Positions 4,973 through 13,548 of a stretch of 34,401 bases of DNA are shown piece by piece (within the stretch, counting starts at the first letter, position 1; each line of letters starts with the position of its first letter). The DNA comes from a virus. The stretch covers positions 1 to 34,401 of the IMG/VR virus record IMGVR_UViG_3300021962_000347. The stretch is one strand, 5' to 3'. Position numbers and translations under genes: made by a program. A model generated the notes under the pieces. That model was not told the DNA's origin, searched no databases, and worked only from the letters and a program-made list of their open reading frames with translations.

Positions 4973-5001
4973 ATTATACATCAAATTTGTTCAATTGTAA
5001 A
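4973..5001 (-). promoter_or_regulatory. Sigma70-like promoter for the uvsY cluster
   Basis: On the minus strand TTTACA (4996-5001) and TATAAT (4973-4978) are separated by 17 bases. The -10 box ends 30 bases before the uvsY ATG. The -35 box lies inside the 3' end of the second tube-like gene. This would let the recombination and auxiliary genes be transcribed without the late sigma factor. Confidence 0.75.
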
Positions 5002-5484
5002 GCGTTTATGCCTAAAAGTTGCTGTTGCTTCCGCATATGTTATATCAGTATTTCTGGTATCAAAAGCAATTTCGGAAAGATTTGTCGGAAACATGTCTTC
5101 GAAATTGACACGAATATTTGGATTAGCTGTACTATTTAGTATTGTCAATTGAGCGTCGGAGAATACACCACTAGTATCTCCTTGCTTTCTCGTTACTAAA
5201 GTCTTATGTTGATTAAAGTTATCTGGAAAAGCAATGGCAATCATCCAGTTAAAAATTTCTAGATAGTTGTTCATATTTTCATCTACACGAAAAGTAATAG
5301 AAAACTCTCCGTATTCTAGATGATCTGGATTAAAATACAATCGTGAAAAAGGCGTCTGTACCTGAACTTCTGCCATTGAAATAGACGGCAATGTTGCAGA
5401 CTGTATATACAGTTCTACATTCGGCAGTCTACGAATCGTAAACTGAAATCCAAGTGGTGATAAGAAGTTTTGACCGGTTGCCAT
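4981..5484 (-). CDS. Second gp19-family tail tube-like protein
   Basis: A 167-residue beta-rich protein of the T4 gp19 tail tube family. It shows family features: FLSPLGFQFTIRRLPNVEL, then an 'S.TLPSI...EVQTPF' segment comparable to 'A.IPASTLGTIEVPYFGRKVKIAGDRTF' of the main tube protein at 13000-13548, then FSITFRVDENMNNYLEIFNWM, parallel to WTVTVINDEDFLVRNALEQWM there. It sits after gp23, in the place occupied by gp3 in several T4-like marine phages. It may be a tube terminator, initiator or minor tube protein; which one cannot be decided here. It has its own late promoter and follows the capsid terminator. No strong Shine-Dalgarno sequence is seen (ATAGGATAACAA before ATG). Confidence 0.78.
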   Translation of the reverse strand: MATGQNFLSPLGFQFTIRRLPNVELYIQSATLPSISMAEVQVQTPFSRLYFNPDHLEYGEFSITFRVDENMNNYLEIFNWMIAIAFPDNFNQHKTLVTRKQGDTSGVFSDAQLTILNSTANPNIRVNFEDMFPTNLSEIAFDTRNTDITYAEATATFRHKRFTIEQI

Positions 5485-7886: not shown

Positions 7887-8549
7887 CTAGAGTGAATTCA
7901 AAAATCTTGAAAATAATTTAAACTTTTGTTCTTCTAGCTGTTCTTTTGATAGCTTCTTCGTTTCAGTTACAATCTGATCAATACGATCTTGCGCTCTCCA
8001 AGAACCAGAAGCAACATCGTAAACCCATTCTACACCTTCCATAATGCCTCTTACAAAAGCATCTGGCGCGGAAGGATCAGCCACAATGTCACCCGCAGTA
8101 GCAAGCATAAAGTCGTTTTGAACTTCCATTATGCCTTGTTTGTTCGCTTTTAATGAACCCATGCCACGAGATGAAACACCAAGTGTTGCGCCTTCATCCA
8201 TTAAACTCTTTACTACTTTGCCCATTGGTGTGTCCATGATCTTCGCTTTACCAACAAAATTAGAACCTTCTTGTTTTAGTTCTGTGATCATATGGGACAC
8301 TCTGTCAAGATTTACCGTTGGACCTTCTGGATGACCAAGTTCACCAAAAGCACGATTCTTCTCGACAAAATTCTTGTTATATCTAGCTACTTCTTTTGCA
8401 ATAACAGGAGCAGGATACATTCTACCATTTCGATTTTTAATATCTCCTTGCATGAAGATACCTTCAATGAAATAGTTTTTCTTTCCACTCTCTTCTATTG
8501 TCTCGGTAACGTATTGAACGTCCTCCATAACTTCGCAGATAAGTTTCAT
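7887..8549 (-). CDS. 21: Prohead maturation protease gp21
   Basis: Serine protease that cleaves the scaffold, core and capsid proteins and then itself during head maturation. The 220-residue product is near T4 gp21 (212). Candidate catalytic residues are H73 in FGELGHPEGP, S126 or S127 in LGVSSRGMG, and the acidic position D154 in GDIVADPSAPDAF, as in the herpesvirus-like protease fold. GRMYPAPVI near 42-50 is another family signature. GGAGGAGACGAATA precedes the ATG, which overlaps the stop of the 89-residue gene as TAATG. Its likely targets in this window are gp22, gp23 and the 744-residue core protein. Confidence 0.95.
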   Translation of the reverse strand: MKLICEVMEDVQYVTETIEESGKKNYFIEGIFMQGDIKNRNGRMYPAPVIAKEVARYNKNFVEKNRAFGELGHPEGPTVNLDRVSHMITELKQEGSNFVGKAKIMDTPMGKVVKSLMDEGATLGVSSRGMGSLKANKQGIMEVQNDFMLATAGDIVADPSAPDAFVRGIMEGVEWVYDVASGSWRAQDRIDQIVTETKKLSKEQLEEQKFKLFSRFLNSL

Positions 8550-8818
8550 TATTCGTCTCCTCCGGCTACGGGCGTTCTGTATACTGTAGCCACATCGGTA
8601 TTGAGAGAAATATAATACTCATGTGACCAACAGTCGATTATTACAGAATCTCCTGGTCCAACCATCGTAGTAGCAATTACGTTCGAATCGGTTGTACCAA
8701 TCTCTACGTTTGCAACTGATGATGCATTTGAATTATATACTCTTTGCCAACGGCTATCAGAAATTTGTACATGCGTGTCATCAAGGACGGCACTATTTGC
8801 AACTGGTTTAAAAGCCAT
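8549..8818 (-). CDS. 89-residue unknown protein in the head cluster
   Basis: I do not recognise this protein. It is small, acidic and apparently all-beta (RWQRVYNSNASSVANVEIG, then a GDSVIIDCWSHEYYIS strand pair and ATVYRTPVAGGDE), with no membrane segment. It sits between the long core protein and gp21 and is joined to both by TAATG overlaps (8818 and 8549), with GGGAGGCAGTATA before its ATG. Position and coupling suggest a virion or prohead protein made in step with them, perhaps a decoration or fibre-capping protein. It does not look like T4 gp68, which is helical. Confidence 0.7.
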   Translation of the reverse strand: MAFKPVANSAVLDDTHVQISDSRWQRVYNSNASSVANVEIGTTDSNVIATTMVGPGDSVIIDCWSHEYYISLNTDVATVYRTPVAGGDE

Positions 8819-11052
8819 TATACTGCCTCCCTAGCGAAATTAATAATTTCAGAAAACGATGTCTTATCGCTCATCATTTTTTCTTCCATTTTCTTTTTAT
8901 TTGAACCATTAAGGTTTTTGTATAAATTATTTAGAAGTTTTGCCTGTTCTACTGTTAGTTTAATTGTAGAACCGTCTTTTAACGTCATAACACCTTCATG
9001 AATAACAGACTCTTCTGTTGGTTCCATACCAACAACATCATCACCTTTACCTTGTGCTTGTAACCTAAAAGTCTTAATGATTTCAGCTCTTTGTACTCTG
9101 TCAATAGAAGTAATCATATCATTAGGACGTTTTAGAATTTTACGCAACTCTACTTTTACTCTATCTGCACTTGGTGCATCCATAAAGAATTTTGGCAGGC
9201 CTTCGATATCTACTTTGAAGAAACCTTCTGACATTGCCTGTTTTGTAGCAGTAGCATACATTACTTCTTTCCAACGATCACCATAACGACTCTTGAATTC
9301 ATCTGTTTTGGATTTCATTGATTTGACAATCTCTTCACGCTTCTTCATTTGAGCATCAGACATTTCTTTGACATAACTGTTTTGAAGCGCTCTCTTTTTA
9401 GCTTCACCAGCATCAGCCATGGCTTTCTTTAGTCTCTCTTTTGCTGCTGTCACACGATCAGCAGCTTCTTTATCTCTTTCTGCCCTTCTAGCTTTTTTGT
9501 CCATTGAAGCTGATTTAGCGTCTTGTCGACCTCTTGCACTAAGTCTAATATTGCCATGTTTGTTGACAACAGCTTTTTTAACAAGTCTACCTGCACCTCT
9601 TGCTACTGCACCAACACCACGAGCAACAGCGCCGATTAATTCATCTAACTGTTCTTCTGTTAAATCGTCTACATTAATGCCTTCATCAAGTAAAAACTGT
9701 GCAAGAAACTGTGTTTCTGCTTCTTTTACAACAGTCAAATCCATTGTAACTACAGCAAAGTTTTTTGGACCTAATGCGAGTACTTTTCCTTTAATCTCTT
9801 TTGCTTTTTGATCGGCTTCTTGTTTTGTTTTAAACATAAACAACTTTTGAGCTTCATCAAGTACTTCTTCTTTGACTGCCCATTTGCCAGCAGACTTACC
9901 AACGCCTCTGATAACTTTGCCGCCAACTTCTTTTGCCTTCTTACGAGCATCTGCTTCGTTGTCGTATAGATGCAAAGCGCCTTTTTTCTCGTCGAGTTTA
10001 ACTTCGTGTGATTCGCCTAATGAATGTTTTATAGCCGCGTCAAGCAATTCTTCAGCTTTTTTGTCACTTACTTTCAATGCCTTCTTAATAGCGGCAATGC
10101 CTTGCTGAGCATTTTTAGTTGGACCTATAATCTTTAGAATTTTTTTCATTTCTGCGGCAGAAGCTGCTTCACTAACAACTTCTTCTTTTTTTAGATCAGC
10201 CGGTTTCATATTATGATATTTCATAAGTCTAGTTGCTGCCGACATACTAACAAAAGGAATATCTGCCTTATATAATTGTATTAATCCATTTTTATCATCT
10301 TTAACTTTATCCATAATAGCCATTAATTTGTTAGCATTGTCTACACTAATTCTTTTGCCACGCATTGGTTCATATGCTTTTTTCAATGCATCGATTTGAC
10401 TTGCACTCATCTTTGCTTCAGCAACTACTTCTTCAGTGAACACAACTTCGAACGATGTTGTCGCGCCAGTCTTTGGATCAAGAGCCATCATACGCTCTTT
10501 ACCTTTTGTTGCATTCTTGTAGTCTTTGCTAACTTTACGGAAGTTTGCTTTTGAGATATGAATTTTACCGTTTTTAATCTCGTAGTTCTTTGCTTCATCA
10601 ACTTTAACAGCCTTAGAAATAGCTTTTCTACGCTTGTGTAGATATTCATCAGAACTATCTACATCACCGTCATTGTCTATGTCTTTGTCTTTTCTATCGC
10701 TAAACTTTTTTTTAAGAGCCTTTTGGTTTACCGGATCCATGCCTTCGGCCATAGAACAATCTTCTTCGTGTTCTCCGTCTTCACCGCCGCATTCCGGACA
10801 CTCGTCATCATCATCGTCGTCATCGTTGTCTTCACCGTCATGCTCTTCGTAAACTTCTTCGTCCTTGCCTTTTTCCAAGTCGGCAAGACGCTTCTTCTTC
10901 GCAGGAGACTTCTTTGTACCATTGTAGATGCCAGGATCATCATCGTGACCAGGGTAATTGGTCTTGTTGACAATGTGTTTATCCTTGAATCTTTTTTCGT
11001 CACCGGCTTTTGGCTCGGCAACTTCTTTGATGAAGGCTTGGAATTTTTTCAT
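8818..11052 (-). CDS. Long modular prohead core protein
   Basis: A 744-residue protein between the gp67-like and gp21 genes, where T4 carries gp68, and far longer than gp68. Residues 60-105 are extremely acidic with a CPEC...C cysteine group; 121-137 contains DKDIDNDGDVDSSD, an EF-hand or dockerin-like calcium loop. From 150 on, short modules are divided by repeated hydrophobic-x-E-A/G motifs: VDEA 151, VAEA 210, VSEA 293, LDEA 398, VKEA 442, LDEG 455, MSEG 607 and IHEG 684. These resemble gp21 cleavage sites. Residues 359-395 and 403-437 are two copies of one fold (LHLYDNEADARKKAKEVGGK against LFMFKTKQEADQKAKEIKGK). Residues 505-605 are basic helix. Probably an internal core polyprotein; a role after cleavage is unknown. 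Confidence 0.82.
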   Translation of the reverse strand: MKKFQAFIKEVAEPKAGDEKRFKDKHIVNKTNYPGHDDDPGIYNGTKKSPAKKKRLADLEKGKDEEVYEEHDGEDNDDDDDDDECPECGGEDGEHEEDCSMAEGMDPVNQKALKKKFSDRKDKDIDNDGDVDSSDEYLHKRRKAISKAVKVDEAKNYEIKNGKIHISKANFRKVSKDYKNATKGKERMMALDPKTGATTSFEVVFTEEVVAEAKMSASQIDALKKAYEPMRGKRISVDNANKLMAIMDKVKDDKNGLIQLYKADIPFVSMSAATRLMKYHNMKPADLKKEEVVSEAASAAEMKKILKIIGPTKNAQQGIAAIKKALKVSDKKAEELLDAAIKHSLGESHEVKLDEKKGALHLYDNEADARKKAKEVGGKVIRGVGKSAGKWAVKEEVLDEAQKLFMFKTKQEADQKAKEIKGKVLALGPKNFAVVTMDLTVVKEAETQFLAQFLLDEGINVDDLTEEQLDELIGAVARGVGAVARGAGRLVKKAVVNKHGNIRLSARGRQDAKSASMDKKARRAERDKEAADRVTAAKERLKKAMADAGEAKKRALQNSYVKEMSDAQMKKREEIVKSMKSKTDEFKSRYGDRWKEVMYATATKQAMSEGFFKVDIEGLPKFFMDAPSADRVKVELRKILKRPNDMITSIDRVQRAEIIKTFRLQAQGKGDDVVGMEPTEESVIHEGVMTLKDGSTIKLTVEQAKLLNNLYKNLNGSNKKKMEEKMMSDKTSFSEIINFAREAV

Positions 11053-11085: not shown

Positions 11086-11334
11086 TTATTCTTCTTCTTC
11101 ATCAACATTGTCGCTATCATCTTCAAACTCTTCTGTCTCATCATCAACATCTACTTCAATATCTTCATCAGCGCCATTCATAATTCTATCCGCAACCTCT
11201 TGCCGTCGAGCATCGATTGCTGCTGAAATTTTGTCATGCATTACACCGTCAAAAGCGGTTTTAAAATCATTTGGTTTTTCTTCATGTGCAAACTTCAATA
11301 AATCCGCAATGTTATATTGTCTATCATCAGCCAT
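11086..11334 (-). CDS. 67: gp67-like prohead core protein
   Basis: An 82-residue protein with a short helical N-terminus (IADLLKFAHEEKPNDFKTAF) and a C-terminal third made almost wholly of D and E (residues about 56-82). T4 gp67 is 80 residues with the same helix-plus-acidic-tail design and the same place next to portal gp20, where it helps shape the prohead core. Sequence identity is not strong enough to be sure from reading alone. CAGGAGTTAATT precedes the ATG and a late promoter lies 18 bases upstream. Confidence 0.8.
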   Translation of the reverse strand: MADDRQYNIADLLKFAHEEKPNDFKTAFDGVMHDKISAAIDARRQEVADRIMNGADEDIEVDVDDETEEFEDDSDNVDEEEE

Positions 11335-12999: not shown

Positions 13000-13548
13000 T
13001 TAGCCGGTCGAACGACCAGTGATACCACCAGAAACTTCCCAGAAATCATATTGGAATGTCACTGTAAATTCTTCAATCGTGTCTACTGTTTCCCAAGCCA
13101 TTTCAATCGTTGAAACTTCTGAAGGATACAGACCGTTGAATGTATATTCACGAATTGGTACACCTGTTTTAGAAAACTGTGTAATCTGTGCTTGTGCCTT
13201 ATAGAGCAATGGCGAAGCAGAACCAAACTGACGAACGTTCGTTGCGTGAGTATTGATTGAATGCATCCATTGTTCTAGTGCATTGCGTACTAGGAAGTCT
13301 TCATCGTTAATTACTGTGACTGTCCATTCAGCGAATGTTCTGTCGCCAGCAATCTTTACTTTGCGACCAAAGTAAGGAACTTCGATTGTACCTAGTGTTG
13401 AAGCAGGAATTTGTGCCGCCTTGATCATGAAAGGCGTCTTAATTGCTGCCGCAGCGTTAACTGGATTTTGAAGCGTGACTTGGAAGAGAGAGTTGCGGGC
13501 ACCTCCTAATACAAGTTGGCTTCGAATTTCTTGGACGTTAAAAGCCAT
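13000..13548 (-). CDS. 19: Tail tube protein gp19
   Basis: Forms the inner tube of the contractile tail, through which DNA passes. The 182-residue product (T4: 163) has the family pattern: RNSLFQVTLQNP, IKAAQIPASTLGTIEVPYFGRK, AGDRTFAEWTVTVINDEDF, LEQWMHSINTH, and a C-terminal IEMAWETVDTIEEFTVTFQYDFWEV. It follows sheath gp18, the standard T4 order. TAGGAGATTAAAC precedes the ATG, a late promoter lies 26 bases upstream and a hairpin follows. A paralogue of the same family is found at 4981-5484. Confidence 0.95.
   Translation of the reverse strand: MAFNVQEIRSQLVLGGARNSLFQVTLQNPVNAAAAIKTPFMIKAAQIPASTLGTIEVPYFGRKVKIAGDRTFAEWTVTVINDEDFLVRNALEQWMHSINTHATNVRQFGSASPLLYKAQAQITQFSKTGVPIREYTFNGLYPSEVSTIEMAWETVDTIEEFTVTFQYDFWEVSGGITGRSTG

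Follow-up and report, generated by a model that had tools for sequence, protein, structure and literature searches.

The question raised by this locus is whether a 744-residue protein encoded among the head genes of an uncultured T4-like phage of bacteria serves the prohead core as one chain, or is a polyprotein that the head protease cuts into several internal head proteins, some of them injected with the DNA, as a preliminary description had proposed. The window, by which we mean the whole 34.4-kb stretch of an IMG/VR virus record that was analysed, carries on its minus strand genes for the sheath, tube, portal, a gp67-like protein, the 744-aa protein, an 89-aa protein, gp21, a gp22-type scaffold and gp23 (Table 1). 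The reading that we consider best, with a probability of roughly 0.6, is that the 744-aa protein is a modular prohead-core polyprotein processed by gp21, and that some of its basic modules are kept with the DNA and delivered.

Table 1. Features of the 744-aa protein and of its neighbours in the window; arrows mark predicted cuts.
Feature	Coordinates	Strand	Predicted cut	Basis
gp21 head maturation protease, proposed processing enzyme	7887..8549	-		PF03420 Peptidase_S77, E 1e-34
744-aa modular prohead-core protein (proposed), gene-68 position	8818..11052	-		ORF, synteny with IMG/VR gp21 loci, motif statistics
Conserved C-domain, residues 687-744 (MTLKDGSTIKLT...SFSEIINFAREAV)	8821..8994	-		HMM family; pLDDT ~90; same place in IMG/VR loci
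Module 610-686	8995..9225	-	IHE↓G686	Structure model
Segment 445-609, helical stretch and widespread module MSDAQMKKREEIVKSMK...RYGDRWKEVMYATATKQAM	9226..9720	-	MSE↓G609	Family matches
Module 401-444, pI 9.7	9721..9852	-	VKE↓A444	Tandem paralogue of 356-400
Module 356-400, pI 9.4	9853..9987	-	LDE↓A400	Paralogue of 401-444
Module 296-355, pI 9.0	9988..10167	-	LDE↓K355	Best-predicted internal module
Module 213-295 (KMSASQIDALKKAYEP...), pI 9.5	10168..10416	-	VSE↓A295	Shared with relatives
Module 154-212, pI 9.5	10417..10593	-	VAE↓A212	LDE↓A in L002 at the junction preceding the next module
Conserved N-domain, acidic stretch and EF-hand-like module DKDIDNDGDVDSSDEYLHKRRKAISKA, residues 11-153	10594..11022	-	VDE↓A153	Family N-domain
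Capsid-targeting-like N-terminus MKKFQAFIKE	11023..11052	-	after E10	Likeness to T4 ipII/ipIII
gp67-like small acidic prohead protein	11086..11334	-		PHROG 1064 'prohead', E 3e-4; adjoins portal gene

The gene lies between those of the gp67-like protein and gp21, which is the place of gene 68, with one small ORF in between. That ORF encodes the 89-aa protein (8549-8818, minus strand), which is of no known family; ORFs of 75-125 aa similar to it occupy the same place in many relatives. The window also has two different tail-tube (phrog_45) proteins, one downstream of gp23 (4981-5484, minus strand) and one upstream of the portal (13000-13548, minus strand). The two statements about neighbouring genes on which the original proposal depended proved correct. 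The proposed processing enzyme is a Peptidase_S77 protein encoded by the second gene downstream of that for the 744-aa protein, and it has GEL-HP and GVSSRG motifs in common with T4 gp21. The gp23 of the window has SLLNE↓A at residue 56, equivalent to GSFLTE↓A in T4 gp23 and kept in nearly all gp23 homologues examined.

The N-terminus of the 744-aa protein, MKKFQAFIKE↓V, resembles the T4 capsid-targeting sequence, a likeness that had been overlooked. T4 IPII and IPIII start with MKTYQEFIAE↓A (translated from the T4 record), and within the T4 sequence positions 4 and 7 direct targeting and positions 8 and 10 direct processing (PMC9026906). These key positions are Y4, F7, I8 and E10 in T4 and F4, F7, I8 and E10 here, so that the 744-aa protein has the N-terminal targeting sequence that characterises an internal protein. 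A change to D at position 10 prevents T4 IPIII from being processed. A strict form of the targeting pattern occurs in 23 of 40 family members as against 2 of 904 other ORFs.

The eight sites first proposed for gp21 cleavage (VDE↓A153, VAE↓A212, VSE↓A295, LDE↓A400, VKE↓A444, LDE↓G457, MSE↓G609 and IHE↓G686) are all found at these residues. A ninth [ILVM]xE↓[AG] site, MAE↓G103, was not among them, and LDE↓K355 had likewise been missed. In composition-preserving shuffles of the 744-aa protein 2.47 [ILVM]xE↓[AG] sites are expected against the nine observed (p ~2e-4); the strict [IL]xE motif with any P1' residue is not enriched in this one protein by the same kind of test (8 vs 7.3 expected). V stands at P3 in four of the eight sites first listed; T4 gp21 prefers L or I there. 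MAE↓G103 and LDE↓G457 are weakly supported as cut sites, and the latter sits where a predicted helix ends in the structure model. The AlphaFold model as a whole is poor (mean pLDDT 56), and its low-confidence gaps include or border sites 153, 212, 295, 355, 400, 444, 609 and 686.

No Pfam family scored above cut-off in the 744-aa protein or in five long relatives, PHROGs returned only families of unknown function for the 744-aa protein, and a fold search with the weak model retrieved only other poorly characterised phage proteins (E < 1e-3) with TM-scores of ~0.1 to the query, too low to be informative. Homology to T4 gp68 was considered and rejected (hhalign probability 0.2%, 10 columns).

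Searches with gp21 gave 80 IMG/VR loci which, among those long enough, mostly have the same gene order, and at which the ORF in the gene-68 position is 141 to 839 aa long among uncultured relatives. From 63 complete relatives gathered through the C-domain, a consistent design emerges, and it is repeated in hundreds of uncultured relatives: the C-domain is present in all 63, an N-domain opening with the targeting sequence is present in nearly all, and the middle varies widely, with different, shuffled modules and 'EExxLDE↓A'-like junctions between the two domains. Modules recur in other orders and numbers (m2 in L006, L010 and L018; m1 in L006, L026 and L121), and the 'LSKxTLGSYVKKA' module reaches four or more copies per chain. 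In some rows of the family the HMM for this 'LSKT' module drifted to the flanks of EF-hands, so that the counts in those rows are upper values. Comparison of the relatives shows modules to be gained, lost and duplicated as cassettes bounded by the predicted junctions. Modest support for such boundaries comes from the ends of homology segments, 33-46% of which fall within 10 residues of a junction as against 23% by chance, about 1.4-2 times the random rate. The shortest culturable version, Sinorhizobium phage phiM12 gp070, is a protein of 135 aa encoded between the portal and gp21 genes and consists of N-domain, VNE↓A and C-domain. A tblastn search of cultured phages with one C-domain query (E 0.01) found no match, and a variant query found the domain in Melnitz phages.

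Within the 744-aa protein itself, the N-terminal piece 11-153 is acidic. Its EF-hand-like module, DxDNDGDVDxSDxYLHKRRKAISKA (10603-10740, minus strand), matches the end of HTVC008M AGE60467 with 84% identity and recurs in marine T4-like phages; an LxE site follows the module in Melnitz gp21 and L018 as well. Module 213-295 is found amid different neighbours in L002, L156 and HTVC008M AGE60466, and [IL]xE bounds its counterpart in L002 and HTVC008M. Residues 301-340 have pLDDT values of 84-94. Modules 356-400 and 401-444 are tandem paralogues (shuffle p < 5e-4) whose repeat unit is bounded by junctions, each copy ending at one. The module of segment 445-609 occurs in 14 of the 40 family members and also in 39 records of cultured phages; no match to module 610-686 was found among cultured phages. 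Seven of the eight predicted pieces after residue 153 have a pI of 9.0-9.7 and one has 5.9, so that most of these predicted products are basic like the T4 internal proteins (pI 8.9-9.5).

Whether the motif is under selection was judged from 40 diverse representatives with <50% identity. They contain 113 motifs against 45 expected (z ~9-10); when the register is shifted by one residue there is no excess or even depletion, and controls with xD, xK or a reversed motif give a much weaker signal. At the same loci the known gp21 substrates gp22 (z 14) and gp21 itself (z 8, homologous positions counted) are enriched as well, and the portal gp20, tube gp19 and sheath gp18 show no enrichment. A second set of 86 further module-bearing proteins, gathered through the LSKxTL module rather than through the 744-aa protein, gave 200 motifs against 104 expected (z 9.8); here the off-register and xD controls showed depletion. 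Chance clustering of motifs was ruled out by the shuffles, the off-register controls and the non-substrate proteins. The family has [L/I]xE above chance, as a substrate of an S77 gp21 should; some of its sites have V or M at P3. The junction that precedes the C-domain has I, L, M or F at P3 in 37 of the 40 sequences aligned, and the E at P1 is the most conserved linker position (1.2 bits vs 2.1-3.7 for most upstream linker neighbours). In five divergent members the motif lies about a dozen residues upstream of this junction, and IHE↓G of the window is displaced by a few. An alignment of homologues had been named in advance as a check on the polyprotein proposal, and at the pre-C-domain junction it shows the expected pattern of a conserved site in a varying linker.

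The cassettes are not confined to proteins at the gene-68 position. At least 341 IMG/VR stretches contain the LSKxTL cassette, and the proteins that bear it reach 1431 aa among the matches listed. Related modules occur in cultured HTVC008M, Melnitz, Cr30, S-SKS1, S-B05, DSL-LC02 and Syn9, where they are mostly annotated as hypothetical. In virus L195, LSKxTL cassettes lie both within the gp67-like protein and towards the N-terminus of the gp22-like scaffold (L195:4638-5984, L195:7920-9095). In Caulobacter phage Cr30 a 682-aa cassette protein (L174:3762-5810) is encoded near a cytidylyltransferase gene. Another protein, of 1126 aa (L194:3141-6521), combines a targeting-like N-terminus, a cytidylyltransferase-type domain and several junction-bounded modules. 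Its head is 37% identical to S-CREM2 gp154, a standalone cytidylyltransferase with the targeting sequence MKNFSSFLTE↓A. S-CREM2 gp154 was detected in purified virions by mass spectrometry, with the caution that such virion-detected proteins might be preparation contaminants (PMC10665884). Another virion-detected protein, S-CREM2 gp160, consists of several segments with [IL]xE between them and gave no BLAST match to the 744-aa protein family. We consider it possible, at slightly less than even odds, that T4-like phages from many environments share a pool of small junction-bounded cassettes, carried in several prohead-targeted proteins (the gene-68-position protein, gp67-like and gp22-like proteins and the cytidylyltransferase) and freed by gp21 for injection.

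In the gp21-processed polyprotein that we favour, the IP-like MKKFQAFIKE would take the 744-aa protein into the core as this assembles, to join gp22 and the gp67-like protein. During maturation gp21 would then cut after the E of the [ILVM]xE junctions, a step to which their conservation and the shuffling of modules point. The most secure predicted cuts are those after residues 10, 212, 295, 355, 400, 609 and 686, and those after 153 and 444 are probable. The products of cutting would be the two end domains, of which the N-domain is acidic, and several mostly basic modules of ~45-165 residues; the C-domain would function in the core together with the gp67-like protein. At least some basic modules would probably stay with the DNA after packaging and pass into the host like T4 IPI-III, which is an analogy and the least certain step. 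Cleavage at several junctions is, from the sequence comparisons, a prediction that we hold with considerable confidence, and delivery of modules to the host has about an even chance by analogy. The analogy is a plausible one and draws on the IP-like targeting sequence, the basic pI of the fragments and the kinship of module-bearing proteins with virion-detected ones. The core of the preliminary description, a single chain of several modules cleavable by gp21, is well supported by the targeting sequence, the enrichment that is substrate-specific and runs through the whole family, the conserved junction within variable linkers and the shuffling, whereas its injection part rests on analogy.

Cutting does not imply delivery, because T4 gp22 and gp67 are cut likewise and their fragments mostly exit the head and are discarded. 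Hence the 744-aa protein might be a core scaffold only, its junctions cut by gp21, its pieces leaving the head as debris, and its extra modules tuning core volume or head size. The gene-68 position beside a gp67-like neighbour, the occurrence of the same motif enrichment in gp22 and the presence of cassettes inside gp67-like and gp22-like proteins would all fit such a role. We nevertheless regard it as unlikely that this is the whole function, since the targeting sequence is of the IP type, the length varies from 141 to 839 aa among relatives with the same head genes, and the modules are mostly basic, diverse and shuffled, some of them being joined to a cytidylyltransferase with a virion-associated relative. 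It is very improbable that the protein stays uncut, with junctions that are acidic linkers and recombination joints only incidentally like the motif: acidic EExxLDE linkers do offset the basic modules, the strict motif is not enriched in the 744-aa protein alone and some junctions have L or I at P1', yet the enrichment exists in register only, being absent or turned to depletion one residue away and weak or turned to depletion with D or K in place of E, P3 and P1 are conserved in a variable linker, and gp21 lies two genes away with a gp23 that has the same motif.

The proposed polyprotein resembles several known systems without matching any of them. Like T4 IPI, IPII and IPIII, the 744-aa protein has MKxFxxFIxE with the key positions, a predicted cut after E10 and mostly basic predicted pieces of IP size, so that it would work as if such internal proteins had been strung together; the T4 proteins, however, are encoded by separate genes, whereas here several modules share one chain that has many internal sites and core N- and C-domains. 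With T4 gp67, gp68 and gp22 it shares the place between portal and gp21 and the several gp21-type sites per chain, but it has no detectable similarity to gp68, and its family reaches 839 aa, with shuffled modules and the IP-like targeting sequence. The N-domain, C-domain, junction and synteny are common to phiM12 gp070 (phrog_26626), which lacks inserted modules. Caulobacter phage Cr30 AGS80949 and cyanophage S-SKS1 AGH31595 are long repeated-module proteins with xxE junctions, but they lie away from the gene-68 position and have no C-domain. Polyvalent proteins, the closest idea in print, combine many domains in one virion-delivered phage chain and were likened by their authors to viral polyproteins (Iyer et al. 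2017, PMC5512222). They have an embedded peptidase, known or predicted, and larger enzymatic domains, whereas a separate head protease and small modules are predicted here; the Pfam searches of the 744-aa protein and the five long relatives revealed no named effector domain or embedded peptidase. In SPN3US and phiKZ the prohead protease also cuts a single head-protein chain several times after xxE (PMC10052503), but there the cuts fall in a propeptide that is discarded to leave one mature protein, unlike what we propose for the 744-aa protein. In the open-access literature that was searched we found no paper describing such a polyprotein in T4-like phages.

T4 has few internal head proteins, and each has its own gene. 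If there is a shared pool of cassettes as described above, one or a few long genes would load many different small proteins into the head for injection, a polyprotein strategy whose cargo list evolves, and the cassettes would let abundant environmental T4-like phages vary the proteins that they carry without new genes, promoters or targeting signals. Such a cassette system would also give a sequence rule by which candidate delivered proteins could be listed in many uncultured genomes, and the role of virion-carried small proteins in T4-like viruses other than the coliphages would become directly testable by N-terminal proteomics.
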